From positions 248,001 through 312,000 of the forward strand of contig NZ_JAMXBE010000004.1 of assembly GCF_024704835.1 (NCBI RefSeq): 64,000 bases of DNA, given 5' to 3'. The notes below the pieces were generated by a model. That model saw only the letters and a list, made by a program, of their open reading frames with translations, was not told where the DNA came from and did not search any database. Origin of the DNA: Parapedobacter tibetensis. Lineage in GTDB: Bacteria > Bacteroidota > Bacteroidia > Sphingobacteriales > Sphingobacteriaceae. The position numbers were made by a program, and so were the translations under genes. Position 1 is the first letter of the stretch, and each line of letters opens with the position of its first letter. This document shows positions 9,803-36,847 of this stretch, piece after piece.

Positions 9803-9848
9803 GTGATCGCGTGAATTATGGAAGCTTGAATGCCCAGAAAATAAATAG

Positions 9849-9879
9849 TTGTGAAAAAAAGCAAGTTTATCTAAGTTTG
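9849..9879 (+). promoter_or_regulatory. Promoter of coaA
   Basis: TTG at 9849-9851, a 20-bp spacer and TAAGTTTG at 9872-9879 form a near-ideal Bacteroidota promoter, ending 24 bp before the coaA start. The whole 31-bp segment closely resembles the promoter at 19058-19088. Confidence 0.75.
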
Positions 9880-9903
9880 CAGCTCCATTAAGCTGCTCTC
9901 GCC

Positions 9904-12259: not shown

Positions 12260-12276
12260 AGGTAAGGATTAAGGTA

Positions 12277-13098
12277 TTATACGGCCACAGGTGCTTTGAT
12301 GTGCGGATGTGGTTCGTAATTCGTTAATTGGAAATCTTCATATTTAAACGCAAAAATATCAGTTACCATCGGATTAATGGTCATAATGGGCAAGGGTTTT
12401 AAATCCCTGCTCAACTGCAACTCCACCTGTTCAAAATGATTGCTATAAAGATGGGCATCGCCAAGGGTATGCACAAAATCCGCGGCCTCCATATCACATA
12501 CTTGAGCCACCATCATCGTAAGCAGGGCATAGGAAGCGATATTGAATGGCACCCCCAGGAAAATATCCGCGCTCCGCTGGTATAGTTGGCAAGAAAGCTG
12601 GGGTCTGTCCAGTCCCCTCTCAGGATCTGCCGGTGCCACATAGAATTGGAAGAACGCATGGCATGGAGGAAGCGCCATATGTTCGATTTCGGCCACATTC
12701 CATGCGGATACGATGATGCGACGCGAATCCGGGTTGGTCTTCAACTGCTGTATCACCTTCACAATTTGATCAATATACCCACCATCTGGAGTAGGCCAAG
12801 AACGCCATTGCGAACCGTAAACAGGCCCCAAATTACCATGCTCATCCGCCCATTCATCCCAAATGCTCACCCCATTTTCCTTGAGGTACCGGATGTTGGT
12901 TTCACCCTTGAGAAACCAAATCAATTCATGGATGATGGACCGCAGGTGTAGCTTCTTCGTAGTCACCAAAGGAAAACCCGCCTGGAGGTCGAAACGCATT
13001 TGGTAACCGAAAACACTACGTGTTCCCGTACCTGTACGGTCATGTTTTTCCACTCCGTTTTCATATACATAGCGCATCAAATCGAGGTATTGCTTCAT
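12277..13098 (-). CDS. thyA: Thymidylate synthase
   Basis: ThyA methylates dUMP to dTMP using methylenetetrahydrofolate, which becomes dihydrofolate and is recycled by the adjacent folA product. The 273-residue protein carries the nucleophile Cys146 in [12 protein letters not shown], the arginine-containing [12 protein letters not shown] at the N-terminus and the folate-binding [16 protein letters not shown] box TATCTTTA (13129-13122 on the minus strand), one base off TAnnTTTG, lies 23 bp upstream and may be the -7 element. The gene heads the thyA-folA-mscS operon. Confidence 0.97.
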
Positions 13099-21999: not shown

Positions 22000-23127
22000 T
22001 TACAAGCCAAAATTTGGATTTTGGGGTCCGCCCGGATCTGGTAATTCACCACCACCGCCGCCTTGGTTAGGATAGATAATAATGGTTTTACTAATTCCTT
22101 TTACACATGCACCAGATTGATCCAATACCGTAATTCTTAGGTAATCTTGGTTGTGGTTAGGGGGGTAAAAAGACCAGCTCCCAGGTATTCTAACTTTAAA
22201 TTTATAAGGTCCTGTTTGTTGGATCTCACATGTAGATCTGCTCGCTATGAAATTTGTAATTGTAAAATTTTCACCGGGATCCAATTGAATCTCAAATTCT
22301 TCCTCGTTATTAGGATGGTAGTTCGAGGTTAAAAATGATGGGCCAATTAGCCTGCCTTTGATTAAACCAACTCGAACATCAAAGTTAGCTGTATTTCCAG
22401 TATTCGAGGTCGCCATCAGTCTGACAATCCCCACATTATTACTGACTCTAGATAATTTATATGTTGTCGCACCAGTTTTAGTTAATGTAGCTGGGGTGCC
22501 GTCAATATTTTGTATGACAACATTTCCTGCATGTTGAATTTCATAAACACCTTCGGTACAGATATCAGTTGGGCCAGATATTGTTATTGGTGGATTAAAA
22601 GTGTCTACGAAACTATATTGTTTATTATGTGTAAACCATGGCTTGCCAAACGCTATTTCAGGCAGCCAACCTGACTGAGTAATTCCGGGAATTAAATTCC
22701 AATTCGAATCGTAATAAAATCTATATTTTATTACCAACCTTGCGGAATTCATATCGATTCCATTGGTTGAAATAGACAAACTGAAACTCTTAAGCTTCGA
22801 AATAAGATACATTTGTCCATCAACGATAAAATCTTCTTCAAAGAAAGTCAGTTTGGCCTCCTTTTTTACTTGTCCACCAACTACAAATTGTACCGATGTC
22901 TCAACACCTTGAAAATGCGGCTTAAAAAGTTCGGTAAGTACAATTCCGAATGAACCGCTAATACCTACACCTAATTGGTTAGAGTCAAACGCTATCTTTC
23001 CATCTGATGTAGGTGTTGATATAGCAAAATTGTAAGGATATAATAGATTGCCGTTATCGTCATTTTGAGCTTTTGCTATACTAATTATTGAAGTAAATGC
23101 AAAGACAAAGAGCCAAAAGTGTTTCAT
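22000..23127 (-). CDS. Secreted hypothetical protein
   Basis: This is an unrecognised exported protein of 375 residues. A clear signal peptide (MKHFWLFVFAFTSIISIAKAQ) opens it. The rest is beta-rich. Residues from about 180 on (ITISGPTDICTEGVYEI, then a second repeat-like segment) resemble the Ig-like or PKD-like modules of Bacteroidota surface proteins. The C-terminus is a glycine and proline-rich tail (GGGGGELPDPGG). There is no type IX sorting domain or lipobox. Its ATG overlaps the stop of the upstream lipoprotein gene as ATGA, so the two are translationally coupled and likely work together. Surface or periplasmic ligand binding is a guess. Confidence 0.75.
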   Translation of the reverse strand: MKHFWLFVFAFTSIISIAKAQNDDNGNLLYPYNFAISTPTSDGKIAFDSNQLGVGISGSFGIVLTELFKPHFQGVETSVQFVVGGQVKKEAKLTFFEEDFIVDGQMYLISKLKSFSLSISTNGIDMNSARLVIKYRFYYDSNWNLIPGITQSGWLPEIAFGKPWFTHNKQYSFVDTFNPPITISGPTDICTEGVYEIQHAGNVVIQNIDGTPATLTKTGATTYKLSRVSNNVGIVRLMATSNTGNTANFDVRVGLIKGRLIGPSFLTSNYHPNNEEEFEIQLDPGENFTITNFIASRSTCEIQQTGPYKFKVRIPGSWSFYPPNHNQDYLRITVLDQSGACVKGISKTIIIYPNQGGGGGELPDPGGPQNPNFGL

Positions 23128-23399
23128 AATTTCATTTTGTTTAATTCACCAATAAACATTTCAATTTTTAAGAAACTGGTTGTTCCTTCCTGAGTGAAAG
23201 CAAGGCTATCTCTGAAAAAAACAAGTTCATCTTTATCCACACCGGTGAGTTTGGCAAGTTTTTCTCTTGTCTCGGACACGCTATACGTCTGACCATCCAG
23301 TACGAAAGTCTCATCATTTACTTTTTCAGACTGGTTTTCTTTCTTGCATGCGCTAAAACCTAGTAATAGCATCATGCCCAAATAAAATAGATGTTTCAT
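23124..23399 (-). CDS. Small lipoprotein, 91 residues
   Basis: This is a predicted lipoprotein whose lipobox LGFSAC puts the lipidated Cys at residue 18. The mature part is about 73 residues: a charged stretch, then TFVLDGQTYSVSETREKLAKLTGVDKDELVFF, a pattern of strand and helix. It is not a family I recognise. It is the first gene of a two-gene operon with the secreted protein at 22000-23127 (ATGA overlap). The leader upstream (23400 onward) is a copy of the susC control region, so the pair is expected to be regulated like the neighbouring susC/susD operons although it encodes neither protein. Confidence 0.75.
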   Translation of the reverse strand: MKHLFYLGMMLLLGFSACKKENQSEKVNDETFVLDGQTYSVSETREKLAKLTGVDKDELVFFRDSLAFTQEGTTSFLKIEMFIGELNKMKL

Positions 23400-23440
23400 G
23401 CGTTTGTGTATTTGGTTAAAAAATATAATTAATATACATA

Positions 23441-23453
23441 CCGGAAACTCCGG
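23441..23453 (-). promoter_or_regulatory. Conserved leader hairpin CCGGA/TCCGG, copy 1
   Basis: CCGGA-AAC-TCCGG forms a 5-bp hairpin in the 5' leader, about 42 nt upstream of the lipoprotein ATG. It corresponds to 28562-28574 and 34753-34764. Confidence 0.5.
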
Positions 23454-23887
23454 GTTTCTTTGTCTATGTACTAAATTGGATTAAACACTTTTACCTAGCA
23501 TTTGGAATGGTCGGCAGATCATATTCGGCCGATATAATTTACCAGACACCGCTTGCATTCAAATCGACCACGTACATTGATCGAATCCGAGCAGGTTAAA
23601 AGCAGTTAATCCTTTTGTGGAAATAGTTTAGCGTAAAATTTCAGCAATAACTTCTGTTTTTAATAATGGTTAATCCAAGTAATTTACCGTTTTGGGTTGC
23701 TTAAAAAACTATGAGTCGTAGTGGCAAGTAAACAGCAGTAAATTAAATCAATAAAAAATTAGACAACGAAGCGATTTAGATTGATTAAATTGACAAACAG
23801 ATTAATTTACAATATAATAAGCAAGTCAATATTTACATATTAGCTATTAGATAAATGACGAGGCGTAATTCGAATAAGATATAAATA

Positions 23888-23912
23888 AAAAAGGGGCTGG
23901 GAGCCCCTTTTT
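23888..23912 (-). terminator. Terminator of the first susC/susD operon
   Basis: AAAAAGGGGCT and AGCCCCTTTTT form an 11-bp stem with a GGG loop, with T-rich ends in both directions. It lies about 110 bp beyond the susD stop at 24020. A copy is at 29013-29037. Confidence 0.88.
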
Positions 23913-23985
23913 AGCGATAGAATTGTTTTGGATTCACAAACACATGTTGACAAGCGGAACAATTCTAGGAAACCGCAGGTAGAGC
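23913..23985 (-). ncRNA. Candidate 3'-UTR small RNA module, copy 1
   Basis: On the minus strand TAGAATTGTT (23967-23958 complement) pairs with its inverse at 23927-23918 to form a 10-bp stem closing a 30-nt loop. The loop holds CATGTGTTTGTGAAT (complement of 23932-23946), which is perfectly complementary to the start region of susC at 28523-28537. The strong terminator at 23888-23912 follows. A GCGG/CCGC pairing (23973-23976 with 23954-23957) overlaps the stem and could be an alternative fold. The stem, loop and terminator are retained in copy 2. Existence as a separate RNA is inference. Confidence 0.45.
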
Positions 23986-24019
23986 AAGATAGCTAATAAT
24001 GAATACCAATTGAAACAAA

Positions 24020-25429
24020 CTATTGTCCAACATAACCTGGGTTTTGAATTATATTCTCATTTGCATAAATTTCACCAGATGGTATCGGTAAGAGATAATT
24101 CCGGTCTGTTGTCATTAGAATCTTAGGGATAGCAGCTCCAAACGCGAGATCCCTGTCATCTCTTTCAACAATCAGGTTTCTTCGTTTTAAATCGAAGAAA
24201 CGATGTCCCTCAAATGCAAGTTCCTTAAACCTTTCCAAATATATTGCATCAATAACATCTTGCTTGTTAGCAAAAGTTTCATCCGAATAATTATCAATTC
24301 TTGCGCTTCTTAAATCATTCAACGCTTTTGTTGCATCAGCTAGATTGTTGTTTTCAGCATACGCCTCCGCTAAAATGAGATATACTTCCGAAACTCTTAT
24401 TACCTTAATATTATTAAATCGATTCGTTTCGTTTTGTCCTGGATATTTATTAACCTTCCAATTCTCACGAGTTTCTTCAACACTCTCATCATCTAAGATA
24501 AATGCATTATACCGTACATCATTATCACCATCATAGGAATCTATCAGCTTAAATGAAGGAGAGAAGAACACATCGGTATTATCGTCCGTCCATAACGTCC
24601 GTATAGAACCACCATTTGAATTCCGTCTTAATTGAAAGAATGTTTCAGAAGTGTTTGAGTCGTTCCAAATGTCTATATAACTGTCTCCACTCGATAATTG
24701 TCCTTTAAACCCAATTGCTTGATTTGAGAAGGTTATCGCTTCGTCCCAATCTTTTGCGTACAATGCAACCCTGGCCCTTAAAGCAACGACCGCAGGTTTC
24801 GTAATCCGAAAGAGGTCACCAAAACCAGCGGGTATAAGTTGATCGGCTTCAGCAAGATCCAATTTTACTTGATTAATCACTTCACCAAATGTATTACGTG
24901 GAGGTTTGCCCAGTACTACTGATTCAAGCATCAATGGCACTCCCATCGCATCATTTTCATAACCGGAAGCAAATGAGCGCAGTAAATCAAAATGACAAAG
25001 AGCTCTCAATGCCAGCAATTCCCCTCTCAAGCGAGGAAGTTCTTGGGCTTGTGTTCCCATGGTAGTTAAATTATCGTACACTGCCAACGCTCTATTTATA
25101 CGGTCTATCACATTATACAAGTTTCCCCAAGGCGCTGTAACGTTACCATCGGAAGAATCAAAGGCCCATTTATGCGGTAAACCGTAGTTCCTCACATTAT
25201 TATCAATAGCCCATCTCGATTCATCGGCCATCAACGTATTACTATAGATGGTTTGATTGTATCCGATATTTGAATACACCCCAATAACAGCCCTATCAAA
25301 ATCTTCGTAATTCTGAATAGCCGTTTCGGTAGGGATTGTGTCAGAGGGCAGCAAATCGATATTATCACTGCAGCTTATAGATACGGACATAATAGCCGCC
25401 GTAATTAGTAGATTTAATTTCTTTTTCAT
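24020..25429 (-). CDS. RagB/SusD family outer-membrane lipoprotein (first locus)
   Basis: This SusD-type surface lipoprotein caps the SusC barrel and binds the nutrient before import. The 469-residue precursor has a lipoprotein signal ending in SVSISC, with the lipidated Cys near residue 20. It contains the family's TPR-like helices (RGELLALRALCHFDLLRSFA, RARVALYAKDWDEAITFSNQAI) and a typical C-terminus (ERFKELAFEGHRFFDLKRR ... LLPIPSGEI). It lies 21 bp after susC stops, so the two form one operon. No glycan hydrolase, sigma/anti-sigma or hybrid sensor gene accompanies them, so the substrate cannot be inferred. Confidence 0.95.
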   Translation of the reverse strand: MKKKLNLLITAAIMSVSISCSDNIDLLPSDTIPTETAIQNYEDFDRAVIGVYSNIGYNQTIYSNTLMADESRWAIDNNVRNYGLPHKWAFDSSDGNVTAPWGNLYNVIDRINRALAVYDNLTTMGTQAQELPRLRGELLALRALCHFDLLRSFASGYENDAMGVPLMLESVVLGKPPRNTFGEVINQVKLDLAEADQLIPAGFGDLFRITKPAVVALRARVALYAKDWDEAITFSNQAIGFKGQLSSGDSYIDIWNDSNTSETFFQLRRNSNGGSIRTLWTDDNTDVFFSPSFKLIDSYDGDNDVRYNAFILDDESVEETRENWKVNKYPGQNETNRFNNIKVIRVSEVYLILAEAYAENNNLADATKALNDLRSARIDNYSDETFANKQDVIDAIYLERFKELAFEGHRFFDLKRRNLIVERDDRDLAFGAAIPKILMTTDRNYLLPIPSGEIYANENIIQNPGYVGQ

Positions 25430-25450
25430 TTCATGTCTATTTAATCACGC

Positions 25451-28400
25451 TTAAAAATTAACCTCTACTCCAAATGTAAAATTTTTGGGAGCAGGATACC
25501 TGAAATTATGGATATTGATACTATTCTCAGGGTCAAAACCGCTCCATTTGGTCCAGGTCATCAAGTTTTGTCCCATCGCATACACCCTGACACCCGATAG
25601 AAATTTGGATTGGCGTACAAAATCTGTTGGTAACCGATAGCTAACTGTTACATTCCTCCAACGTATAAAAGAGGCATCCTCGATATCAAAGGAACTAAAT
25701 TGACGCTGCGATCCCAAACGAGCAATATCAGTAATTTGCCCGGGTTCGTTCCAAGCATTAGCCATTCTCTTTTGTTGATTATAGGCCGAGAAATTGGAAG
25801 TACTTGCCAAGAAAAAGGATTCATTATTGAACAAATGAAACCCCTCAAAAAATACAAACAATGTACTAAAACTAAACCCCTTGTAAGAAAAGGAGGTGCC
25901 AAATCCACCTTTGGTAGGCGGAAACATTGTCCCCCATTGGGCCACGGACATGGTGTTGCCATCATAAGTTGTCGTGGTTGTCCCATCCATCTCACCGGTT
26001 TCCTGATTCCTGTTATAGTAGAGGGGGGCACCGGTTTCTGGATCGGCACCAGCATAACCAACTGCATAGTGAGACCCCCTAGGCAACCCCACCCTGATGA
26101 TAGAAGTACCTTGTGGATACTCTTCTTCTTGACCGAGGGATGTTATTTCATTTCTATTATAGGCAATATTCGCATTAATCGTCCATACATAGTCCTTGCC
26201 AGACAGCACGTCAACCGCAAAATCAAATTCGATGCCTTGATTAAGCATGTTTCCAGCGTTAATAGACAAACTGTTAAATCCAGATGTCATCGATAGTTGC
26301 TGGGATATAAACAAATTTCTAGTTGTACTATGATAAAATTCCAGCGCACCTCTTACGCGATTATTCCAAAGTCCGTAATCAAGTCCAATGTTAAAGGCTC
26401 TTGTATATTCCCAGTCAAAATCTGGATTACCGGGCGTAGCCGGGGCAATACCAGATTCACCGGCGTAAGACGCATTGCTATAAGTTGGCAAATAACCGAA
26501 ATTACTTTGATTTTGGGCAGTCGCAGTTAATCCATAGCTAGCCCTCAAAATCAGTTGATTAACAAAGGGACTGTTCTGAAGAAAGGTTTCCTCCGATATA
26601 TTCCAGTTACCACCCAACGAATAAAAACTTCTCCAACGATTCGCTGTAGGTAATTTGGATGAACCGTCTCGTCTAAATGAACCTTGAAAGGTGTATTTCC
26701 TGTCGTACGTATAGTTAGCTATCCCAAAGTAGGACAGCAAACCATATTCCGTCTTTCCACCCCCAACACCCGGTATCATTGCATTTGTGTTTGTACCAGC
26801 TGTAATTCCCGCAGGGGTGTTCAACAACTTTGGATTAATACCGTATCCAGTATAGTTAAATCCGGATTCCCTCCAACGAACAGCTTCAAACATAGCATGC
26901 ACAGACAAGTCGTGCTTGTCTGCAAAAACCTTATTGTAAGATAACCCCGTTGTAGAGATCAAATTTAGTCTCCTGGTTACATTATTACCGTATGATCCTT
27001 GATTGCCATTCTGAACGGAAACTCCGGCATGTGAACCAGGATATATACTGCGTTCTTGCGTAGTTTGGCGATAATCAAGTCCAACGTTAGTCGACAACTT
27101 TAATCCGTCGTACAGTCTATAAGCGGCATTCGCATTAAACATTGTTTTTATCTGGTCCGTAAATAAGGTTGTATTATCCATCCTATCTAATGTGTTAGAT
27201 GCTATACGACTATCGGCCAATACCCCGTACCTACTATTAAAAGGATTAGCTGGAGAAAAACCGTTTGTTGTATTATTGGATGTGATAATTCTACCGTCTG
27301 GCCCAAATGGATTCTCCCAAGGCAAACCCAAGTAAATTGCAGCATAAGGATTAGCCAACGCAACTGCAGCTTCGGACTCGATGAAATTTGATTTGGACCA
27401 TCCTGCATTACTTTGCAAGCCGAATTCCCAAGGGCCGGAATTATGGTCTAAATTAAGCCTAAATGTATAACGCCTTAAGTCCGACCGATAAGCAACACCA
27501 TCCTGATCATAATAGTTTAGACTACTAAAGTACCTTGTGTTTTCATCTCCTCCTGACGCCGTTACTTCATGGGTCTGGAGTCTGCCTGTCCGGAAAAACA
27601 AGTCTTCCCAATTAGTATTAATTCGACTAATGGAGTCAAGTATTGCTGCTCTCCTAATTGGTTCGATAGAAGAACTCGTATTGTTTGGCGATAAAGTCCA
27701 CCCAATACCGGCTCGACCCTGTTCTTGTAGCGCCAGCAACTCGCTAGTGCTCATCATATCAAATTTAGATGTCGCCCTGTTATCAATACCAAATTGTGTA
27801 TTATAACGAAGTTGCAGTCCACCTGCCTTCCCCCTTTTTGTCTTAATTACCACCACACCGTTGCCACCTCTCGATCCATAAAGCGCAGTGGTGGAAGCAT
27901 CTTTAAGGATACTAATACTTTCGAAATCATTAGGATTCATTGTAGAAAACGTAGCCTCATCAATGGGCACACCATCTACGACGTACAACGGGGTTTCACC
28001 ACCCGCAATTGAATTCTGGCCCCGTATCCTAATCACAGCGTTTGTTCCAGGTTGCCCCGAACCCGACAAGACACTTACACCGGCAGCTAGTCCTTGCAAT
28101 CTTTGAGAAAAGTTGGGCATAGGTACATCTTGAATTTTATCAGATGAAATGGTTACACTGGCCCCTACATTTTTAGTCCGCGCAGTCTCGGTATAACCCG
28201 TAATAATGACTTCTGCCAACTCAGATTTTTCCGCTGTTAGCGCCACGTTTACAGTGTTTCTACCATCAATCTCAAGCGTCTGCGTAACGAAGCCAATCAT
28301 TCTAAACTGAATGTTTCTGGCAGCAGCGGGTACAATAAGAGAATATTGCCCATTCTCATCGGTCTGAGTTCCTCCACCGGAACCAATAATTAAAACTGAG

Positions 28401-28525
28401 ACCCCTGACAATGCACCCCCGTCTATTTCTGAAGTTACCCTACCGCTGATTCTCCTGTCTTGGGCATATGCCGATCCCATCAGCACTAATCCCAGCACGA
28501 GAAAACATAGTAATTTTTGTTTCAT
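25451..28525 (-). CDS. SusC/RagA family TonB-dependent outer-membrane transporter (first locus)
   Basis: This is a TonB-dependent barrel that imports nutrients delivered by its SusD partner. The ATG at 28525 gives 1024 residues and begins a signal peptide (MKQKLLCFLVLGLVLMGSAYAQ). The frame is open to 28549 without support. A carboxypeptidase-regulatory-like domain (about 28-100) precedes the plug, which contains the SusC signature SILKDASTTALYGSRGGNGVVVIKTK in shortened form around residue 215. The C-terminal barrel ends in an aromatic residue (VEVNF). The start region is exactly complementary to loops in the 3' UTRs at 23932-23946 and 29057-29072. Start-codon access may therefore be controlled by RNA pairing. 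Confidence 0.96.
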   Translation of the reverse strand: MKQKLLCFLVLGLVLMGSAYAQDRRISGRVTSEIDGGALSGVSVLIIGSGGGTQTDENGQYSLIVPAAARNIQFRMIGFVTQTLEIDGRNTVNVALTAEKSELAEVIITGYTETARTKNVGASVTISSDKIQDVPMPNFSQRLQGLAAGVSVLSGSGQPGTNAVIRIRGQNSIAGGETPLYVVDGVPIDEATFSTMNPNDFESISILKDASTTALYGSRGGNGVVVIKTKRGKAGGLQLRYNTQFGIDNRATSKFDMMSTSELLALQEQGRAGIGWTLSPNNTSSSIEPIRRAAILDSISRINTNWEDLFFRTGRLQTHEVTASGGDENTRYFSSLNYYDQDGVAYRSDLRRYTFRLNLDHNSGPWEFGLQSNAGWSKSNFIESEAAVALANPYAAIYLGLPWENPFGPDGRIITSNNTTNGFSPANPFNSRYGVLADSRIASNTLDRMDNTTLFTDQIKTMFNANAAYRLYDGLKLSTNVGLDYRQTTQERSIYPGSHAGVSVQNGNQGSYGNNVTRRLNLISTTGLSYNKVFADKHDLSVHAMFEAVRWRESGFNYTGYGINPKLLNTPAGITAGTNTNAMIPGVGGGKTEYGLLSYFGIANYTYDRKYTFQGSFRRDGSSKLPTANRWRSFYSLGGNWNISEETFLQNSPFVNQLILRASYGLTATAQNQSNFGYLPTYSNASYAGESGIAPATPGNPDFDWEYTRAFNIGLDYGLWNNRVRGALEFYHSTTRNLFISQQLSMTSGFNSLSINAGNMLNQGIEFDFAVDVLSGKDYVWTINANIAYNRNEITSLGQEEEYPQGTSIIRVGLPRGSHYAVGYAGADPETGAPLYYNRNQETGEMDGTTTTTYDGNTMSVAQWGTMFPPTKGGFGTSFSYKGFSFSTLFVFFEGFHLFNNESFFLASTSNFSAYNQQKRMANAWNEPGQITDIARLGSQRQFSSFDIEDASFIRWRNVTVSYRLPTDFVRQSKFLSGVRVYAMGQNLMTWTKWSGFDPENSINIHNFRYPAPKNFTFGVEVNF

Positions 28526-28561
28526 GTGTTTGTGAATTTGGTTAATCAAATATAATTAATG

Positions 28562-28574
28562 CCGGAAACTCCGG
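28562..28574 (-). promoter_or_regulatory. Conserved leader hairpin CCGGA/TCCGG, copy 2
   Basis: CCGGA-AAC-TCCGG, about 37 nt upstream of the first susC ATG, matches the copies at 23441-23453 and 34753-34764. Confidence 0.5.
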
Positions 28575-29012
28575 GTTTCATTGTCTGTGTGTTAATTGAA
28601 TTAAACATTTTGCCTACCATCTATTTTGGAATTGCCAGCAGGTCATATTCGGCCGATATCATTTACCAAGCAATACCCATGCATTCAAATTGACCATGTA
28701 CCATTGATCGAATCCGAGCAGGTCAAAAGCAGTTAATCTTTTTGTGGAAATAGTTTAGCGTAAAATTTCAGCAACAACTTCTGTTTTTAGTAATGGTTAA
28801 TTCAAATAATTTATCACTTTAGGGTGCTAAAAAACTATGAGTCGTATTGGCAAGTAAATAATAGTAAAGTAAATCAATAAAAAAAGAGGCAACGAAGCTA
28901 TTCAGACTAATTAGATTGACAAATGACTTAATTTATAATACAATAGGCAATTTATAATTTACATAGCTAGTATTAGATAAAAGACAGGGCGTAATTGGAA
29001 TAGGTATAAATA

Positions 29013-29037
29013 AAAAAGGGGCTGGGAGCCCCTTTTT
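29013..29037 (-). terminator. Terminator of the second susC/susD operon
   Basis: An 11-bp stem with GGG loop, AAAAAGGGGCT to AGCCCCTTTTT, identical to 23888-23912. It lies about 95 bp beyond the stop at 29130. Confidence 0.88.
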
Positions 29038-29108
29038 AGCGATAGAATTGTTTTGGATTCACAAACACATGATTACAAGCGGAACAATTCTGGGAAACCG
29101 CAGGTATA
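29038..29108 (-). ncRNA. Candidate 3'-UTR small RNA module, copy 2
   Basis: The same architecture as copy 1. A 9-bp stem (29044-29052 with 29083-29091) closes a 30-nt loop. The loop holds the complement of 29057-29071, reading CATGTGTTTGTGAAT, followed by the terminator. The loop base next to it extends complementarity to the first susC start to 16 nt. Between the copies the loop differs only around positions 29072-29074, outside the anti-start segment. Processing or independent transcription is not shown by sequence. Confidence 0.45.
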
Positions 29109-29129
29109 TAATCAATTTATTCAAAAAAA

Positions 29130-29972
29130 TTATTCTTCCCTCGGACCAATATAAGTTAAGGTTTCTTCGAATAGCCGTGCACCACCATTAGAAGTCCACC
29201 TTAGTGTAAACGTCTTCGTTTCCGGATCATATTTGCTTTCAGGGAAAGTCGCTATTGGCAACAAAGTAATCATTTCAACGGTAACTAAATTGGTTTCTGG
29301 ATCAACAATATAATCCACTTGATTACTATAAAACCCTAATAAACCAGGGCCCAACCTACTCCTTGTAGGGCTAATAGTACGTAACTCGACTTCAACATCT
29401 CGATTAGGTAAAAGCGCTGTGTTTGCGGATGTTCTATAGCGATAAACACCATCATAGATGTTTTTTACTGGTAAACTAAAAATCACCTTTCCAACATTTC
29501 CACTAATAACTCCATATGATGTCGACGTGATAGCTATGGCCAAAGCATTGCTTAAGTTACCGTCAAAGGAACTCGGCCGAACTTTAACTTGAAATCGAGC
29601 TGTTTTTTCGCCTCGTTTTATTGTAATCGAAGTTGGGAGCACATAAAGCGAAGGATCCAACGGGTCATAACCTGCCTCTTCGGCCACTTCTGGAGCTGCG
29701 GCTAATTCTACCACAATATCTTGAGGTGCGACATTTTCTGGCCCAGCATAGTTGATACCGGCAGTAAACTCCGATTCAGGGACATTTTCTAGCGTCAACG
29801 GTATATACTCTACATACTTATCATTATAAGCAGAAATTGGGGTTGTTAAATTCAAGAACTCCACAACATTCTGGCTTCCCGAGGGATCCAATGCATAGTT
29901 ATCATCTTTTAAGCAGGCACTAAACACGCCCATAAAGATAATAACCGCAATTATATTCGTTATCTTTTTCAT
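29130..29972 (-). CDS. Lipoprotein with DUF1735-like domain
   Basis: This is a predicted surface lipoprotein of 280 residues. The signal ends in MGVFSAC, with the lipidated Cys near residue 20. The N-terminal half (about 35-150), with strands such as VEYIPLTLENV and PTSITIKRGEKTARFQVKV, has the layout of DUF1735/BT_3987-type domains found in accessory proteins of Sus-like loci. The C-terminal half carries a beta-rich region of unknown type. It follows susD by 10 bp and is the last gene of the operon. It probably assists glycan or peptide capture at the cell surface. Confidence 0.75.
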   Translation of the reverse strand: MKKITNIIAVIIFMGVFSACLKDDNYALDPSGSQNVVEFLNLTTPISAYNDKYVEYIPLTLENVPESEFTAGINYAGPENVAPQDIVVELAAAPEVAEEAGYDPLDPSLYVLPTSITIKRGEKTARFQVKVRPSSFDGNLSNALAIAITSTSYGVISGNVGKVIFSLPVKNIYDGVYRYRTSANTALLPNRDVEVELRTISPTRSRLGPGLLGFYSNQVDYIVDPETNLVTVEMITLLPIATFPESKYDPETKTFTLRWTSNGGARLFEETLTYIGPREE

Positions 29973-29982
29973 CGTTTTCTAA

Positions 29983-31578
29983 TTATTGTTTTGCCCAAAA
30001 GATTAAATCACTAAACTGGTTCAATACCCTTACATTCGTTGGGTTATACGCAAATTCAGTCTGTGGATATAGCAGAATGGTCGGCAGTTCATCCAACCGC
30101 GTAGAATTAGAGTTAACAGATGCCATATTGTTATACCGGTCTGCATCTGGGTTTGTCCTGGGATATCCGGTTCTCCGATAATCATTCCAACCCTCATGCG
30201 AATGAATCATATTCAAGGCTATGTATTTTTGTGTAATGATCGCCTCTGTTTTTTGCTCCGTATTTCCTGAAAAATTAACCAATGTCGAACCGCTATTATC
30301 AGTCAAATAAGTTTCCACATCTTCATCTACATCCTTGCCTGCATCTACCGTTCCACTCACTGTCGTGTAAAGGTATCCAAAGGATGCTGCTATACCCGCT
30401 TCGAAACTTTCCTCGGCATCTCCTGACAAGAGCCCTCTCAATTGGGCTTCCGCTAGCAGAAAATATGCCTCTGAAAGTAACAGGATCGGTTGTCCTTGGG
30501 AGGGCCCCTTCACAATCCCCAAAGCATTGGATATATTACTAGCGCTTTCCCGAACCCCTGTATACCAAGGTGAATAATTGGCTCGGATTGGTGGATTATT
30601 TTGCTCCACACCCAACTGGTTTAGCGGAGTGGGGCGGCTGCCATCGCCAAAGTCGTTGTAGATAACGCTACCCCTGCCTGGATCAGTTAGTTTGTTCCCA
30701 TCATAATAGCCATAAACATAATAAGTAGGGACGCGAGACGAAGTTGCTACGTTGCCCGTAGTCGTATACCCCCATGAAGACCAAGTCGGATTTGGTTTGT
30801 TGAGCTCATAACCTGGATTGACAATAGCATCTTCTGTCAAGATTCCAAGTTCCTCATCGAAAGAAGCGAACTCCGAATTTACAAAATCCTGCAAAGCGGG
30901 TACTTCGGAAACACGAATCAGCAGCCTCAATTTAACCGTATTCGCAAACTGTTTCCATAAATTCATTTGTTCCTCAGGTTCTCTGTCCTCACCAAACATG
31001 GGGTCAGCCGAAAATCCCAAGGCCCTCGGAAACTGGGCATTATCTATAATACCTATCGCTTCATCCAATTTATTTACCAGGTCCTGATAGATAGCTGGTG
31101 CATTATCATAAGCTGGAGTGGTGTTTGCATCACTTTGCAATGCTGCGGTGTATGGAATATCACCGTGAGCGTCAACTAAAAGTTGATACCCATATACGGT
31201 CATGATCTTGGCAACGGCATTAAAATAGGCCAGTTCGTCCACACCCTCGGAATTGTCAATCACGTATTTATAATCCAACAAGTTGTCGTAAGAACCACCC
31301 CAGTTTGAAAGAAATCCTGGTGTAAAATTATAGTTCAATAATGCCCCGAATCCAGAAAAGCCACCCGCGTTGGCGATATAACCACCTAACGAAGCTCCAT
31401 ACGTATTATAAGCAACCGCTAGCGAAGCTGTTCGCACTAAACCGGCTGGTAAAACCAACTCTGGTTGAACAACCGTAGGATCATTAGGGTTATCATTAAT
31501 ATCCAAATATTTCTCACATGACGTCGCTGAAAACAGCAAAGCAAACATCAAATATTTTATACTATATTTTTTCATCAC
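29983..31578 (-). CDS. SusD-like lipoprotein, SusD_2 type (second locus)
   Basis: This is a surface nutrient-binding lipoprotein of 531 residues. The signal ends in LLFSATSC. The N-terminus EKYLDINDNPNDPT and the later GGYIANAGGFSGFG segment point to the SusD/RagB subgroup PF12771 (SusD-like_2). It differs in sequence and length from the SusD at 24020-25429, so the two loci are related but not simple copies in their coding parts. It lies 17 bp after its susC and 10 bp before the DUF1735-like gene. No enzyme is encoded with it. Confidence 0.92.
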   Translation of the reverse strand: MMKKYSIKYLMFALLFSATSCEKYLDINDNPNDPTVVQPELVLPAGLVRTASLAVAYNTYGASLGGYIANAGGFSGFGALLNYNFTPGFLSNWGGSYDNLLDYKYVIDNSEGVDELAYFNAVAKIMTVYGYQLLVDAHGDIPYTAALQSDANTTPAYDNAPAIYQDLVNKLDEAIGIIDNAQFPRALGFSADPMFGEDREPEEQMNLWKQFANTVKLRLLIRVSEVPALQDFVNSEFASFDEELGILTEDAIVNPGYELNKPNPTWSSWGYTTTGNVATSSRVPTYYVYGYYDGNKLTDPGRGSVIYNDFGDGSRPTPLNQLGVEQNNPPIRANYSPWYTGVRESASNISNALGIVKGPSQGQPILLLSEAYFLLAEAQLRGLLSGDAEESFEAGIAASFGYLYTTVSGTVDAGKDVDEDVETYLTDNSGSTLVNFSGNTEQKTEAIITQKYIALNMIHSHEGWNDYRRTGYPRTNPDADRYNNMASVNSNSTRLDELPTILLYPQTEFAYNPTNVRVLNQFSDLIFWAKQ

Positions 31579-31595
31579 ACTATTGTTAAAACCGT

Positions 31596-34500
31596 TTAGA
31601 AAGAGAATGATACCGTACCGCCAAAATACCTTGCTGGAGGAGTTAGCGACACGTTAGCAACACCAATAGCATTACTATCTGCACCTTGTTGACTGTATTC
31701 TGGATCAGTATATAAATTCGTTTTCGGCACCCAAATAAACAAATTGCGCCCTTGAAGGCTTACCGTTGCTCCCTTTACGTAGCCCTTGAAGATATGAGCA
31801 GGAATGTCATAAGACAAGCTTGCTTCCCGCCATTTCCAAAATGCAGCGGAATGCGCGTAGTTCTCGCCAACCCCAGTATTTCGGGTACCATCCGTCCAGA
31901 AATCAGCACCTCCTGAACGCGTAGTAATGTTGGTATTAGCAACATATTCACCTGTTGATGGATCTAAATACGAAGAATTAGGGATCACAAAACGTTCTCT
32001 GTTAAACCAGGTGGAACGGATACCAGCACCCGAAAAATCAAATGCAGTTGTTATGCCATTATAAATATAATGGCCTGTACGATATTCAAACAAGGAGGTT
32101 AAACGGAAACCCTTCCAACGCACTTCAAGATCCGCACCTAGGATATGTGGAGGATTAGACGTACCAAACATTTGATAAGTGCCGTCATGCGAAGGGAATC
32201 CGCTATTGGGATCTACGATAATTCTGCCCTGCGAATCGCGGTTGTAACGGGTGGTTCGAATCAAGGGGAAAGGCTCGCCAACCACAGCGGCTACTTGGCC
32301 TCCGGCGCTTGAAAAGAAAACGTACTCAGGGGCGTCATCTGCTAATGACAACACCTTATTTCGGTTAAGTGCGTAATTCCCACCCACGGTAACAGTCCAA
32401 CCATTACGGTTACGAATTGGGGTTACCCTCAAGAACGTTTCAATCCCTTGGTTTTGTACCTCTCCTACGTTAGTCCGTAAAATGTTGTAACCCGTAGCCT
32501 GGGAAACATTCACTTCCAAGGTTTGATCAACCGTATTGGTTTTATACCAAGTGAAACCGCCACTGACATCACCATTGAACAAGTCAAAATCAAAACCAGC
32601 CTCAGGCCCTTTGGTAATTTCAGGATTGATGTTTGACGCTACCATTATTGAGCCGATGGAAAAACCGGGGCCACCGGTATATGGGAAGCCAAATTGTTGA
32701 GAAAGGACGCTGCTTAACTCATATGCACCGAGATTCACCTGCCCAACATATGCATAGCCGCCACGAAGTTTCAGGTATTCCAACCAAGGTAGATCCTTAA
32801 GCGAAGGGATGGCATCTGTGACAATAAATGACAAGTCAGCAGACGGGTAGAAAAACGAACGGTTTTCCTTGGCAAGTATCGACCGCCAATCATTACGGGC
32901 GGTAACGTGTAAAAAAAGGTAGTTTTTGAAACCAAACCTAAGGTCGCCATAAACACCAACTTGCCGGGATCTGCGGTTGATTTCATCTGCACTTGGAATA
33001 TTTGATGAGTTACCAATATCGTACAATCCATCAACCACCAATCCGCTTGCAGACACATTCAAATTTTTCGCGTTATTATCGCGGATAGAAGCGCCGAGCG
33101 TTCCCTCAAACATCAGATCCTCTGTTATACTTGTCTTATAACCGGCAAGGAAGTCGCTGACCAGCTGAAAACTCCAATTCTGATAATCACTTACACTTCC
33201 CGCCTCATCCGTTTTTGAGCTACCGGATATACTTTTCGTGTATTCACTATACGTAAATTTACCGACCTGTGATTTGTTGCGGTTGTTACGTGAACTCAGG
33301 CCTATTCGGTATGTAAACGTGAGAGGTTTAATCGGGTTCCAACGCAATTGAAGGTTACCTTGGAAATACTCGTTTACGGTAAATTGGCGCCAATTGTCCA
33401 ACGTGAAATAAGGGTTATCGTAATATTCATTATAATAACCATTCGGATTAGCAAATGGATCCGTTTCCCAATTCCGGTAATCGGTCAATTGAATATGCGC
33501 AGGTGTCATCATAATATTGGTATACATGCTTCCGGTCTGCGTGGTCATGTCATACCAGTTGTAGATGTAATTGGTATTGAACTCCACGTCAAAATTGTCA
33601 TAAATTTTACGTGTACCATTAGCACGTAATGAAACTCTCCTGTATTTATCGCGAGGAACGGTTGATTTTTGATCAAAATACTGACCGGCGATATAATAAC
33701 TTGATTTGTCGTCACCCGATGTCAACGATAGATCTGTCTGATTTGCATAGCCAGCTTCCCAAAAATCATTCTTTCCATTTGTTGGGGAATAGGGTATTGT
33801 TTGAATTGATCCATCTTCCAATGGCTTGCCTATTGGTACCATCGAGCCGTCAAATTCAGGGCCATATTGTTGGTTTTCATAGGGTGTATACGTCTTTACA
33901 TTATCTGGTGTGGTACCGGAACCAAACCTTGATTGCAATTTGGGATAATAGCTAACTTCCTCAAATGTGGATGTATTAGATAATTTAATGAAAGTTTGTC
34001 CAGCCTTACCTTTTTTGGTAGTAATGATAAGTGCTCCATTAGAAGCATCTGAACCGTAAAGTGCTGCCGCACCGGCACCATTCAAAACCTGGATATCGTC
34101 GATGTCCTCTGGATTCAAGTTGCCTAGCATTGAAGTAGGCACGATAATATTATCGACCACTAACAAGGCCTGGTTATTACCTGTGATTGAACGCTGTCCC
34201 CGGAGAATTAGTCTATAATTTGGATTCAAACCGCCACTAACTGCATTTACTTGCAAACCTGGAACTTTACCTGATAAACCAGCGGCGACATTAGATGCTT
34301 TGCCTTGTGTTACATCTTGGGTTTTGATAGTAGTTGAGGCATTTCCCAATTGTCTTTGCGTAGTGGTCAAACCACCACCTGTTACCACCACTTCATCTAA
34401 GCTCGTCGTGATTGACACAAGTTCAACATTCAGCGTATTGCCACGCTGGGAATAAGTGGCCACTGAATGCTCTTGGGTTTGGTACCCTAAATAAATAAAC

Positions 34501-34718
34501 ATGATGGCATTGTAGTTGGAGGGTACGGTAATTGCATAATTACCGGCATCATCCGTACTTGTAGCAATCGTTGAGCCGACAACTGTAATTGACACCCCCG
34601 AAAGAGGCGCTCCATTGTCAGCGGAAGTCACCTTTCCGCTCACTACTCTTGTTTGTGCATTGGCAAAACCAACCAACAAAACGCAAAGCAGTACGAAACT
34701 TAGTAGTTTTTGTTTCAT
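31596..34718 (-). CDS. SusC/RagA family TonB-dependent outer-membrane transporter (second locus)
   Basis: This is a TonB-dependent importer of 1040 residues that pairs with the SusD_2-type lipoprotein downstream. The signal peptide (MKQKLLSFVLLCVLLVGFANAQ) closely resembles that of the first susC. It is followed by a carboxypeptidase-regulatory-like domain (VSGKVTSADNGAPLSGVSI) and the plug with IQVLNGAGAAALYGSDASNGALIITTKKG, a variant of the SusC motif. The barrel ends in GTVSFSF. The 5' leader is the third, shorter copy of the shared control region. Its start is complementary to the 3'-UTR loop over a contiguous 9 bases only. Confidence 0.96.
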   Translation of the reverse strand: MKQKLLSFVLLCVLLVGFANAQTRVVSGKVTSADNGAPLSGVSITVVGSTIATSTDDAGNYAITVPSNYNAIMFIYLGYQTQEHSVATYSQRGNTLNVELVSITTSLDEVVVTGGGLTTTQRQLGNASTTIKTQDVTQGKASNVAAGLSGKVPGLQVNAVSGGLNPNYRLILRGQRSITGNNQALLVVDNIIVPTSMLGNLNPEDIDDIQVLNGAGAAALYGSDASNGALIITTKKGKAGQTFIKLSNTSTFEEVSYYPKLQSRFGSGTTPDNVKTYTPYENQQYGPEFDGSMVPIGKPLEDGSIQTIPYSPTNGKNDFWEAGYANQTDLSLTSGDDKSSYYIAGQYFDQKSTVPRDKYRRVSLRANGTRKIYDNFDVEFNTNYIYNWYDMTTQTGSMYTNIMMTPAHIQLTDYRNWETDPFANPNGYYNEYYDNPYFTLDNWRQFTVNEYFQGNLQLRWNPIKPLTFTYRIGLSSRNNRNKSQVGKFTYSEYTKSISGSSKTDEAGSVSDYQNWSFQLVSDFLAGYKTSITEDLMFEGTLGASIRDNNAKNLNVSASGLVVDGLYDIGNSSNIPSADEINRRSRQVGVYGDLRFGFKNYLFLHVTARNDWRSILAKENRSFFYPSADLSFIVTDAIPSLKDLPWLEYLKLRGGYAYVGQVNLGAYELSSVLSQQFGFPYTGGPGFSIGSIMVASNINPEITKGPEAGFDFDLFNGDVSGGFTWYKTNTVDQTLEVNVSQATGYNILRTNVGEVQNQGIETFLRVTPIRNRNGWTVTVGGNYALNRNKVLSLADDAPEYVFFSSAGGQVAAVVGEPFPLIRTTRYNRDSQGRIIVDPNSGFPSHDGTYQMFGTSNPPHILGADLEVRWKGFRLTSLFEYRTGHYIYNGITTAFDFSGAGIRSTWFNRERFVIPNSSYLDPSTGEYVANTNITTRSGGADFWTDGTRNTGVGENYAHSAAFWKWREASLSYDIPAHIFKGYVKGATVSLQGRNLFIWVPKTNLYTDPEYSQQGADSNAIGVANVSLTPPARYFGGTVSFSF

Positions 34719-34960
34719 GTGTTTTGATTTTGGTTAAAAATTAATCGATATACCGGAAATCCGGATTTCTTTTACTAGCTGAATTAGGCTCCATTACCTG
34801 TAATTCTGAGACAAACAGGATAAGTTATATCACCTCGTATCATCCATCAGGCAACCTATACTATCAAATTGACCACGTTCACGGATCGAATCCGAACAGG
34901 CTAAAAGCAATTAGTCTTTTTTGAGAAAATAGTTTAGTGTAAAAACTCTACAATAATTTG
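34719..34960 (-). repeat. SusC-type control region, copy 3 (partial)
   Basis: The region upstream of the second susC keeps only the promoter-proximal half of the element. It has the start-proximal AACCAAAATC segment, the leader hairpin (34753-34764) and the conserved block (about 34864-34950) with GATCGAATCCGAACAGG and ATAGTTTAG. It is more diverged than copies 1 and 2 and lacks the terminator and anti-start module. Further upstream comes the operator region of the divergent HTH regulator. Confidence 0.75.
34753..34764 (-). promoter_or_regulatory. Conserved leader hairpin, copy 3
   Basis: CCGGA-AA-TCCGG keeps the 5-bp stem although the loop is shortened by one base and flanking bases have changed. 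It lies about 35 nt upstream of the second susC ATG. Confidence 0.5.
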
Positions 34961-35053
34961 CTGCTTTTATGTGTTATTAAATCATGTTTTAGCACGTTAT
35001 CTATTTGCGACACCAAGTAAGCGCTAGCGAATTAGCTGTACAATAAGGACAAA

Positions 35054-35072
35054 TGTAAATTAATAATTTACA
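35054..35072. promoter_or_regulatory. Operator palindrome O1 (TGTAAAT-N5-ATTTACA)
   Basis: A perfect 7-bp inverted repeat with 5-bp spacer, centred at 35063. It matches in arms and spacing the palindrome at 35117-35135, and the right arm continues as AAAAGC in both. Confidence 0.65.
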
Positions 35073-35110
35073 AAAAGCAAAATATAAAATCATTTTAGCC
35101 GAAACAATGG

Positions 35111-35141
35111 GCTTTTTGTAAATATTTTATTTACAAAAAGC
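35111..35141. promoter_or_regulatory. Operator palindrome O2 over the regulator promoter
   Basis: GCTTTTTGTAAAT and ATTTACAAAAAGC are perfect 13-base arms with a 5-bp spacer, centred at 35126. It fills the space between the expected -33 position and the -7 box of the HTH gene, as an autorepressor site would. Confidence 0.7.
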
Positions 35142-35145
35142 AAGA

Positions 35146-35153
35146 TATCTTTG
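35146..35153 (+). promoter_or_regulatory. Promoter -7 box of the HTH regulator gene
   Basis: TATCTTTG matches TAnnTTTG and ends 4 bp before the ATG at 35158, so the mRNA would be leaderless or nearly so. Confidence 0.6.
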
Positions 35154-35157
35154 TAAC

Positions 35158-35535
35158 ATGACCAAAATAAACACGAAGACTTTGGGGGAAGTCATTAAGG
35201 AAACGATGAAAGAACGCGGAATTAAGGGATCGGTGGTTGCCCGAAAGATGAATGTATCAAGGCAAACCATCAATCAAATTGATTTACGTAAAAAATTTGA
35301 TATAGAATTTCTGCAAAACCTCAAGGAAGCTTCAGGTCTCGATTTTACGCATCATGCCTACGAAAGCATAATGGATAAAATGCCTAACGAACAAAAGGTA
35401 AAATACCTTGACCGTACGCCGGGTATTACCTTCAACATCAGCGTTATGGCTAGCAAAGAAAATTTAGAAAACCTGCCTTCTTTTATTAAACAGGTGGAGG
35501 ACCTGGGCAAGCAGTATGGCTTCGAATTAATCTGA
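35158..35535 (+). CDS. Small HTH transcriptional regulator (Cro/CI-like)
   Basis: This is a 125-residue protein whose N-terminal half (about 8-55) is a helix-turn-helix of the phage-repressor type (GSVVARKMNVSRQTINQID is the recognition region). The C-terminal half (about 70-125) is a short alpha/beta segment of unknown type that may mediate dimerisation or sense a ligand. It is divergent from the second susC. Two palindromic operators lie in the intergenic space, one of them directly over its own promoter, so autoregulation is likely. Control of the adjacent susC operon is plausible but unproven. No toxin-like partner adjoins it, which argues against an antitoxin role. Confidence 0.82.
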   Translation: MTKINTKTLGEVIKETMKERGIKGSVVARKMNVSRQTINQIDLRKKFDIEFLQNLKEASGLDFTHHAYESIMDKMPNEQKVKYLDRTPGITFNISVMASKENLENLPSFIKQVEDLGKQYGFELI

Positions 35536-35575
35536 TTAATCCGCTTAAGCTTGCATAGCTAGCATTTGCCCCCGG

Positions 35576-36847
35576 TCAAGCAATCCACTCAAATCCAGTA
35601 TAAGGCACCAATACTTCGGGAATTTTTATCCCCCTATCTGATTGGTTATTTTCCAGCATGGTAGCCAATATGCGTGGTAGAGCCAATGCGCTCCCATTTA
35701 GTGTGTGGGCCAACTGCATTTTGCCGTCCTGCCCCTTAAAGCGCACTTTTAGCCGGTTGCTTTGGTAGGTTTCGAAGTTGGATACGGAAGATACTTCCAG
35801 CCAGCGTTTTTGAGCGGCACTCCATACTTCCATATCATAGGTAAGTGCTGAAGTAAAACCCATATCGCCACCACAAAGGCGCAAGACCCGATAAGGCAGG
35901 TTCAATGCCTGGAGCAGGGATTGCACGTATGCGCTCATTGTTTCGAACACGCCATATGATTGGTCAGGATGCACCAGCTGCACCACCTCTACCTTGTCAA
36001 ACTGGTGTAGCCGATTCAATCCACGTACATGCGCACCATAGGATCCGGCTTCCCGGCGGAAGCATGGGGTATACGCCGTCAGTTTAATGGGAAAATCTTC
36101 TTCTTTCACGATCACATCACGATAGAGATTTGTCAACGGCACCTCCGCCGTGGGGATAAGGTAGAGGTCGTCCGTTCCTACATGATACATCTGCCCTTCT
36201 TTATCAGGCAGCTGTCCCGTACCGAAGCCCGATGCTTCGTTTATCAATATGGGAGGTTGCACTTCTTGGTATCCTGCCTTCTCGGCTTGGTCAAGGAAAA
36301 AATTGATCATGGCCCGTTGCAACCGTGCGCCCTTGCCTTTATATACCGGGAAACCAGCGCCTGTAACCTTGGTGCCCAATTCAAAATCGATGATGTCGTA
36401 TTTTGCAGCTAGCTCCCAGTGGGGTAAGGCATTTTCCGGCAGATTGGGATGATGGCCATGCTCCAACACCACCTCATTGTCTTCGGCCCCTACTCCTTTT
36501 GGAACAGACTGATGGGGCAGGTTTGGCAACAGCACCAGCTTATCCTGCAGTAGTCTTTCCACCGCCGCCAGTTCATCAGCCAATTTTTTAAGCTGCTCCT
36601 TATATCCGCCGGATTGGGCTTTGATGGTTTCCGCCTCATCACGCTTGCCTTGACGCATTAATTCACCAATTTGCTTCGCTGCGGTATTGGCTTCGGCGGA
36701 AAGCGCATCTGATTGGGCTTGGGTCTGCCGACGCTGCTCATCCAAAACAATCACCTCATCCACCAATTCCAATGGTTTGAAATTCCGTATGCCTAGCCGT
36801 TGGATTACGCTGTCACGGTTTTCACGGATATAATTAATTTGCAACAT
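35576..36847 (-). CDS. serS: Seryl-tRNA synthetase
   Basis: SerS charges tRNA-Ser and tRNA-Sec with serine. The 423-residue protein has the usual layout: an N-terminal two-helix coiled coil (about 30-100, rich in Lys, Glu and Gln) that grips the long tRNA variable arm, then the class II catalytic core. Motif 2 is seen in TPCFRREAGSYGAHVRGLNRLHQFDKVE and motif 3 near the C-terminus in NGSALALPRILATMLEN. A promoter box lies at 36870-36877. Confidence 0.97.
   Translation of the reverse strand: MLQINYIRENRDSVIQRLGIRNFKPLELVDEVIVLDEQRRQTQAQSDALSAEANTAAKQIGELMRQGKRDEAETIKAQSGGYKEQLKKLADELAAVERLLQDKLVLLPNLPHQSVPKGVGAEDNEVVLEHGHHPNLPENALPHWELAAKYDIIDFELGTKVTGAGFPVYKGKGARLQRAMINFFLDQAEKAGYQEVQPPILINEASGFGTGQLPDKEGQMYHVGTDDLYLIPTAEVPLTNLYRDVIVKEEDFPIKLTAYTPCFRREAGSYGAHVRGLNRLHQFDKVEVVQLVHPDQSYGVFETMSAYVQSLLQALNLPYRVLRLCGGDMGFTSALTYDMEVWSAAQKRWLEVSSVSNFETYQSNRLKVRFKGQDGKMQLAHTLNGSALALPRILATMLENNQSDRGIKIPEVLVPYTGFEWIA

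Follow-up and report, generated by a model that had tools for sequence, protein, structure and literature searches.

A candidate 3'-UTR-derived small RNA in Parapedobacter susCD operon tails, with a loop complementary to the translation start of sister susC genes

Bacteroidota hold dozens of susCD uptake systems, and 59 susC genes were read in the genome of Parapedobacter tibetensis. Small RNAs derived from 3'-UTRs are cut from, or end with, the 3' end of an mRNA and act on mRNAs of related function; the known proteobacterial examples depend on Hfq and RNase E. As far as the literature was searched, Bacteroides is the only group in which RNA has been shown to control translation of susC. The FopS RNAs of Bacteroides thetaiotaomicron are multicopy small RNAs that pair at the susC translation start and block translation, and both in vitro translation and compensatory changes were used to establish repression of the susC BT_3983 (PMC11697453). 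The same report lists 14 family members, nine of them intergenic, four antisense and one (FopS-14) 3'-UTR-derived, and describes a single-stranded 5' seed, sigma-ABfr promoters and binding by the RRM-1 protein RbpB; the range it reports is Bacteroidaceae and a phage (PMC11697453). DonS and DonS-like RNAs are cis-antisense RNAs divergent to their own susC that lower expression of the susC homologue (PMC7366714, PMC11697453). RydC is described as a pseudoknotted small RNA with its 5' end as seed and a stability that needs Hfq (PMC4337610).

The window analysed here is a stretch of 64,000 nucleotides from P. tibetensis (contig NZ_JAMXBE010000004.1, positions 248,001 to 312,000). It contains two susCD operons, each followed by a copy of an RNA element of about 97 nt, with the following features.

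29010..29106, minus strand: candidate small RNA element, copy 2 (matches positions 1-98 of the covariance model, E 6.5e-26, and was itself used to build it)
23885..23981, minus strand: candidate small RNA element, copy 1 (model E 2.9e-25; also used in the model)
29057..29072, minus strand: antisense seed in the loop of copy 2, 16 nt
23932..23946, minus strand: antisense seed in the loop of copy 1, 15 nt
29083..29091, minus strand: 5' arm of stem b in copy 2 (3' arm 29044-29052)
23958-23966 and 23919-23927, minus strand: arms of stem b in copy 1
29098..29105, minus strand: segment a (ACCUGCGG) on the 5' side of copy 2, which can pair with a' in the loop
29075..29082, minus strand: segment a' (CCGCUUGU) in the loop of copy 2, directly after stem b
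23973..23980, minus strand: segment a of copy 1 (its a' is 23950-23957)
29013..29037, minus strand: intrinsic terminator of copy 2
23888..23912, minus strand: intrinsic terminator of copy 1
25451..28525, minus strand: operon-2 susC (Plug and CarbopepD_reg_2 domains)
24020..25429, minus strand: operon-2 susD (SusD_RagB, SusD-like_3)
31596..34718, minus strand: operon-1 susC (own leader matches the loop over 9-10 nt only)
29983..31578, minus strand: operon-1 susD (SusD-like_2, SusD-like)
29130..29972, minus strand: last gene of operon 1, surface lipoprotein-like (BT_3987-like_N, DUF7015)
28523..28537, minus strand: proposed target site, leader and ATG of the operon-2 susC, 15 nt exact
23397..23411, minus strand: possible but weaker target at the start of the small lipoprotein gene 23124-23399 (leader and ATG)

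Copy 2 follows operon 1 (susC-susD-lipoprotein), whose stop codon at 29130 is 23 nt from the start of the element; copy 1 follows operon 2 (susC-susD), with a distance of 38 nt from the stop codon at 24020. The element is made up of the 5' motif ACCUGCGGUUUCC, the stem arm AGAAUUGUU, CCGC and a loop with CAUGUGUUUGUGAAU, followed by the stem arm AACAAUUCU, AUCGC and, at the end, a strong terminator that includes a U run. Stem b (AGAAUUGUU/AACAAUUCU) has 9 bp, or 10 in copy 1. The stems, loops and terminators were found on the sequence exactly where the original prediction had placed them. The copy 2 element folds with -29.4 kcal/mol (z = -5.3), a value that none of 200 shuffles reached. The 105-nt block 23877-23981 is 96% identical to 29002-29106; the remaining repeat blocks of the shared control region show 66-91% identity, with the exception of one 41-nt piece (98%).

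Both loops had been claimed to be the exact complement of the leader and ATG of the operon-2 susC (28537-28523), and this proved correct, with a match of 16 nt for copy 2 and 15 nt for copy 1. The start codon of this gene is the ATG at 28525 and not the TTG at 28549 given in the ORF list. The duplex at this site was calculated at -24.7 kcal/mol with copy 2 and -22.7 kcal/mol with copy 1. In the whole genome of 5,982,706 bases, the 15-mer CATGTGTTTGTGAAT has four exact sites. Two of them are the loops and the other two are susC starts, of which the first is in the window (28523-28537) and the second approx. 23 kb beyond its end (C34:334985-334999). With up to two mismatches, 27 sites were found for the 15-mer versus 4 for a reversed control pattern. 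The copy 2 loop reached -24.7 kcal/mol with the distant susC start as well, and none of 2000 dinucleotide-shuffled loops paired as strongly. The background consisted of 56 other susC genes of this genome, one of them entered twice, with 136 candidate starts in all, and gave a mean of -9.5 and a minimum of -16.6 kcal/mol.

The start of the operon-1 susC (34718), the gene whose operon carries copy 2, matches the loops much less well. The contiguous 9 bases noted earlier hold for copy 1 and become 10 for copy 2, and the duplex with this leader has -15.6 versus -24.7 kcal/mol for the exact targets. At the small lipoprotein start (23399), 13 of 15 positions are identical and one of the differences is a G-U pair, as had been said and as counted by eye; the longest run is 7 nt, and the duplex has -19.9 kcal/mol with copy 2 and -17.9 kcal/mol with copy 1. 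Only two of the 59 susC genes read carry the exact site, both of the MKQK type, so that a general antisense to all susC leaders was rejected; of 176 candidates, 56 were scored, and three genes from the window and L061 complete the 59, with further candidates in existence. By base complementarity, the seed in the loop is an antisense to the AUG and the end of the leader of a paralogous susC from one sequence group, whose proteins start with MKQK.

Relatives of the element were collected by a DNA search in 60 relatives and with a covariance model built from nine members, which was run on 301 genomes of the bacterial family, nine of the genus and five of the genus Olivibacter. The resulting RNA family has twelve members (all E <= 1.2e-8) in seven genomes, six of Parapedobacter and one of Olivibacter: two in P. 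tibetensis, three each in P. koreensis (G003) and P. luteus (G005), and one each in P. pyrenivorans (G004), P. indicus (G006), P. defluvii (G007) and Olivibacter sp. XZL3 (G022). At E <= 0.1, the model matched in 37 of the 301 genomes. Seven of these hold the members (49-116 bits), and the matches in the other 30 (21.5-30.3 bits), not inspected one by one, were taken as terminator-like noise. Two of 15 weak matches in the genus were inspected and contained no element. The DNA-search matches L045, L046, L051 and L052 were dropped since they cover the terminator only. Three further Parapedobacter genomes (G001, G002 and G008) gave no member above noise with the covariance model.

A pattern in which the seed was left free found nine stretches in a collection of 84,980 species that may omit records of the window's own genome, all of them in Parapedobacter or Olivibacter. 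No match was obtained in 72,556 plasmid records, in 50,697 phage records or, with an exact pattern, in IMG/VR viral contigs, and spread by mobile elements or phages was rejected on the grounds of these collections. Among the matches listed for the open-licence PMC literature, there was no report of a small RNA of Parapedobacter or Olivibacter or of a pseudoknotted small RNA against susC. The 5' motif and the stem are kept across the family, and terminator and seed core mostly so. The seed core GTGTTTGTG is invariant in the operon-linked Parapedobacter copies as well as in those of P. defluvii and P. indicus, while the loop flanks vary. Judged by this comparison of genomes, the RNA element is real, conserved and lineage-restricted.

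The original prediction had suggested looking for the loop behind other susC/susD operons, and eight of the twelve copies are indeed found downstream of a susC operon, on its strand and 8-44 nt from its last gene. With this position and an end at the terminator, they resemble 3'-UTR-derived small RNAs. They differ from the FopS RNAs, which are mostly intergenic or antisense, and from DonS, since the element follows the operon end on the sense strand and matches a distant susC instead of being antisense or divergent to its own. A susD was recognised by Pfam in six of these eight operons; the second operon of P. koreensis and its counterpart in P. luteus have a gene in the place of susD with no or sub-threshold Pfam match. 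Both species contain two consecutive operons that each end with a copy. The downstream neighbour gene is convergent after three copies, namely the second of P. koreensis, that of P. pyrenivorans and one of P. luteus. The carrier susC genes of Olivibacter (L060, G022, 9495-12556; split frame) and P. luteus (G005:C21:42222-42365; 98-codon open frame) look broken or interrupted.

The remaining four copies are solo, with another gene on the same strand 79-412 nt upstream. Those of P. indicus and P. defluvii are located behind serS, which was scanned in both, and before a NAPRTase and GDSL-hydrolase cluster, with Pfam domains scanned in P. indicus, in a place without a susCD operon. No convincing PUL remnants were detected beside these two copies (best E 0.036 over 15 aa). 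Upstream of the P. defluvii copy, a promoter-like TTTG-N18-TATTTTTG ends at a distance of 67 nt, as read by eye against the promoter consensus. The other two solo copies, G003:C11:91596-91692 and G005:C19:45120-45213, are at matching loci, have the same fold and unrelated loop sequences, and adjoin a 5-formyltetrahydrofolate cyclo-ligase gene (domain scanned in P. koreensis).

Segment a, located before GGUUU, can pair with a' right after stem b, which gives the order a-b-a'-b' with a first loop of approx. 5-8 nt, 0-1 nt between the helices and a last loop of approx. 22-31 nt that contains the seed. Real a:a' pairs averaged -9.4 kcal/mol versus -7.4 kcal/mol for pairs swapped between copies (permutation p 0.0017), and a permutation by anchored pair count gave p 0.26; nine of ten sequences were used, with copy 1 left out as a near-duplicate. 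In G022, G003:C11 and G005:C19, the a:a' hairpin is the minimum-energy fold itself. A rival closing stem, GCGGU/AUCGC, has all five pairs in seven of ten copies and loses pairs in those same three. For the nested model alone, covariation was not beyond shuffles. An H-type pseudoknot in which the 5' end reaches into the seed loop is likely on this modelling. Its predicted layout, with the seed in a stem loop and the 5' end paired, differs from the single-stranded 5' seed described for FopS and from the 5' seed described for RydC.

A pseudoknot directly before a terminator is a familiar layout of transcriptional riboswitches, and the element resembles them in this respect. It might thus be a riboswitch-like element or attenuator for the downstream gene, whose pseudoknot would sense a ligand and whose terminator would decide on read-through. 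This is very improbable, however, as eight of the twelve elements are placed 8-44 nt behind an operon end, the downstream gene is convergent after three of them, and the elements had no match to an Rfam family with E values up to 5. The scan of 22000-36000 in the window gave three sub-threshold Rfam matches, all away from the elements.

The distant susC is near a folD-type gene in P. tibetensis, G001-G005 and G008 (folD domain Pfam-confirmed in three of the seven genomes), and a close MKQK-type susC is also present in the genomes of P. indicus and P. defluvii. The leader of this gene reads AAATTCACAAACACATGAAAC in P. tibetensis, G002, P. koreensis, P. pyrenivorans and P. luteus, ...AAACGCATG in G001 and G008, AAATTCAAAACACATG in P. 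indicus and AAATTCACAAAACACATG in P. defluvii. The exact leader site is present in 4/4 Parapedobacter species with operon-linked copies versus 1/5 of the others, in a small and phylogenetically dependent sample. As the target is found in G001, G002 and G008 in spite of the missing RNA family, the leader must be conserved partly for other reasons.

The loops were then paired with susC starts located elsewhere in the same genome. The best pairing was 18 nt with -24.8 kcal/mol in P. koreensis and 13 nt with -23.1 kcal/mol in P. luteus (0 of 2000 shuffled loops as good in each case), followed by 11 nt with -16.6 kcal/mol in P. pyrenivorans (17 of 2000), where the seed mismatches the target inside the AUG. 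The Olivibacter loop pairs over 12 nt with two susC genes (-17.7 and -17.5 kcal/mol; 0 of 2000) in a different register (ACACATGAAACA). The susC of the carrier operon formed weaker duplexes throughout, with -18.6 and -19.3 versus -24.8 kcal/mol in P. koreensis, -10.1 versus -16.6 in P. pyrenivorans, -13.7 versus -23.1 in P. luteus and -9.2 versus -17.7 in Olivibacter. Hence, the best scored loop partner is a paralogous susC elsewhere in four of the five species with an operon-linked copy; this rank covers the scored starts only, which are part of the susC and gene starts of the relatives, with three MKQK-type genes of P. luteus left out. In P. tibetensis, the operon-2 susC and the distant susC tie for best partner, and operon 2 is the exception that is carrier and target at once.

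With the 136 susC starts of P. tibetensis as background, the best chance partner had -21.7 kcal/mol for the P. koreensis loop, -18.8 for that of P. pyrenivorans and -18.2 for that of Olivibacter. The latter two pairings are not exceptional by energy alone, because chance partners are as strong as the proposed targets. A chance match was rejected for P. tibetensis, P. koreensis and P. luteus, and this rejection is weaker for P. pyrenivorans and Olivibacter. Some carrier leaders also beat most shuffles (2 of 2000 as good in P. koreensis, 15 of 2000 for operon 1 of P. tibetensis), and sparing of the carrier is therefore only relative. The full Olivibacter seed with 0-1 mismatches matched only the RNA itself.

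The P. defluvii solo copy still gave -18.0 kcal/mol (2 of 2000 shuffles as good), whereas that of P. indicus has drifted (-9.3 kcal/mol, 438 of 2000), and the loops of G003:C11 and G005:C19 are unrelated. The seed of the latter matched only itself and found no good target, with one 2-mismatch site in P. koreensis. These loops of P. indicus, G003:C11 and G005:C19, which match none of the scored targets, and the fact that terminators are common, would suit a mere RNA 3'-end element for termination and mRNA stability, with the seed as the relic of an inverted leader copy and no regulatory role. It is nevertheless considered unlikely: the seed core stays unchanged while its flanks vary, the loop matches reach over or up to the AUG in a register that differs by species, with Olivibacter using a different stretch, and loop-leader similarity in P. 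tibetensis stops at the seed.

Control in cis is a somewhat more doubtful alternative still. Here the partner of the loop would be the leader of its own mRNA or, on a transcript that reads through into the next operon, the leader of that operon, and closing of a 5'-3' loop would reduce translation. Such a loop reportedly lowers translation of icaR in Staphylococcus aureus. The arrangement in the window invites this explanation, as copy 1 terminates the operon whose susC leader it matches and the susC leader that copy 2 matches perfectly lies approx. 530 nt downstream of it. Yet the best scored match is at another locus in P. koreensis, P. pyrenivorans, P. luteus and Olivibacter, a terminator follows the loop, and the next gene downstream is convergent after three copies.

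The element probably acts as a 3'-UTR-derived small RNA on sister susC genes, and the probability that it blocks their translation is put at roughly two in three. The mRNA of the susCD operon would end at the terminator of the element, from whose tail an RNA of approx. 97 nt would be released by cleavage or protection. This RNA is predicted to fold into a stem that exposes a loop of about 30 nt, possibly with its 5' end in the H-type pseudoknot, which is partly supported. Pairing of the seed over leader and AUG would block ribosome binding, by analogy with FopS. In this way, an induced uptake system could turn down a sister one, because the susC of the carrier operon is usually the poorer match. 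For the two operons in the window, this would mean that operon 1 turns down both operon 2 and the distant susC, and that operon 2 additionally damps itself. Sequence, conservation, position and complementarity are established by the comparison; release, repression, hierarchy and pseudoknot are put forward here as inferred steps.

The original prediction of a 3'-UTR RNA that blocks susC had left feedback and hierarchy side by side. Its structure, position and seed were recovered in other species together with susC matches elsewhere, and the repression itself is still inferred. Hierarchy fits better than plain feedback because, in four of the five species, a susC at another locus is the strongest partner among those scored, even if P. 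tibetensis is a tie. That account contained neither the likely pseudoknot nor the distant target outside the window, the solo copies or the FopS precedent, and it knew of no sense 3'-UTR version, for which FopS at susC starts, with one of 14 members 3'-UTR-derived (PMC11697453), is a forerunner.

The kind of mechanism is known already and proven for FopS; structure, position and partner protein differ here. The elements are like FopS in the predicted pairing with the susC start region and the intrinsic terminator at the end, and like DonS in that the RNA is proposed to lower expression of a susC homologue. No sequence kinship with FopS was seen; the Rfam scan, which may have lacked the model deposited by the FopS authors, had no match on the elements. 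Unlike the RbpB-bound FopS, the element occurs in a genome with no RRM_1 (PF00076) match; one of ten genomes, P. pyrenivorans, was matched (G004:C3:258934-259155), and the Bacteroides ihuae control was positive. Hfq was not found in any of the ten genomes, that of P. tibetensis included, which sets the element apart from RydC as described in its source. A fuller version is tentative and put at somewhat below even odds: a new family of pseudoknotted small RNAs from susCD tails would set a hierarchy among paralogous uptake systems of the outer membrane. The carrier would act in trans on a sister susC and silence it by a seed that covers the AUG and is located in the long pseudoknot loop, would largely spare its own diverged leader, and would need neither Hfq nor RbpB. 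If true, this would be a second, apparently independent route of RNA control of susC in another lineage of Bacteroidota, with the signal built into the operon tail and a partner predictable base by base.

Some minor observations were made around the two operons. The operon-1 lipoprotein (29130-29972) has a BT_3987-like_N domain, and BT_3987 is by its number near the FopS-repressed BT_3983 (PUL72), perhaps by coincidence. A block GATCGAATCCGAGCAGGTNAAAAGCAGTTAATC...TTTTGTGGAAATAGTTTAGCGTAAAATTTC is present upstream of three operons (28660-28834, 23533-23707 and 34838-34959) with 133 nt at 91% identity between two of them, and may serve them as a common site for a promoter or regulator. In both copies of the control region, a short hairpin around CCGGAAACTCCGG (28550-28600 and 23427-23474) directly precedes the leader of the susC or lipoprotein gene, and the TATATTTG near it on the susC side resembles the consensus of a -7 box. 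Divergent from operon 1, a gene for a 125-aa protein with no Pfam match was found at 35158-35535 on the plus strand, and P. pyrenivorans has an ORF of the same length at the corresponding place.
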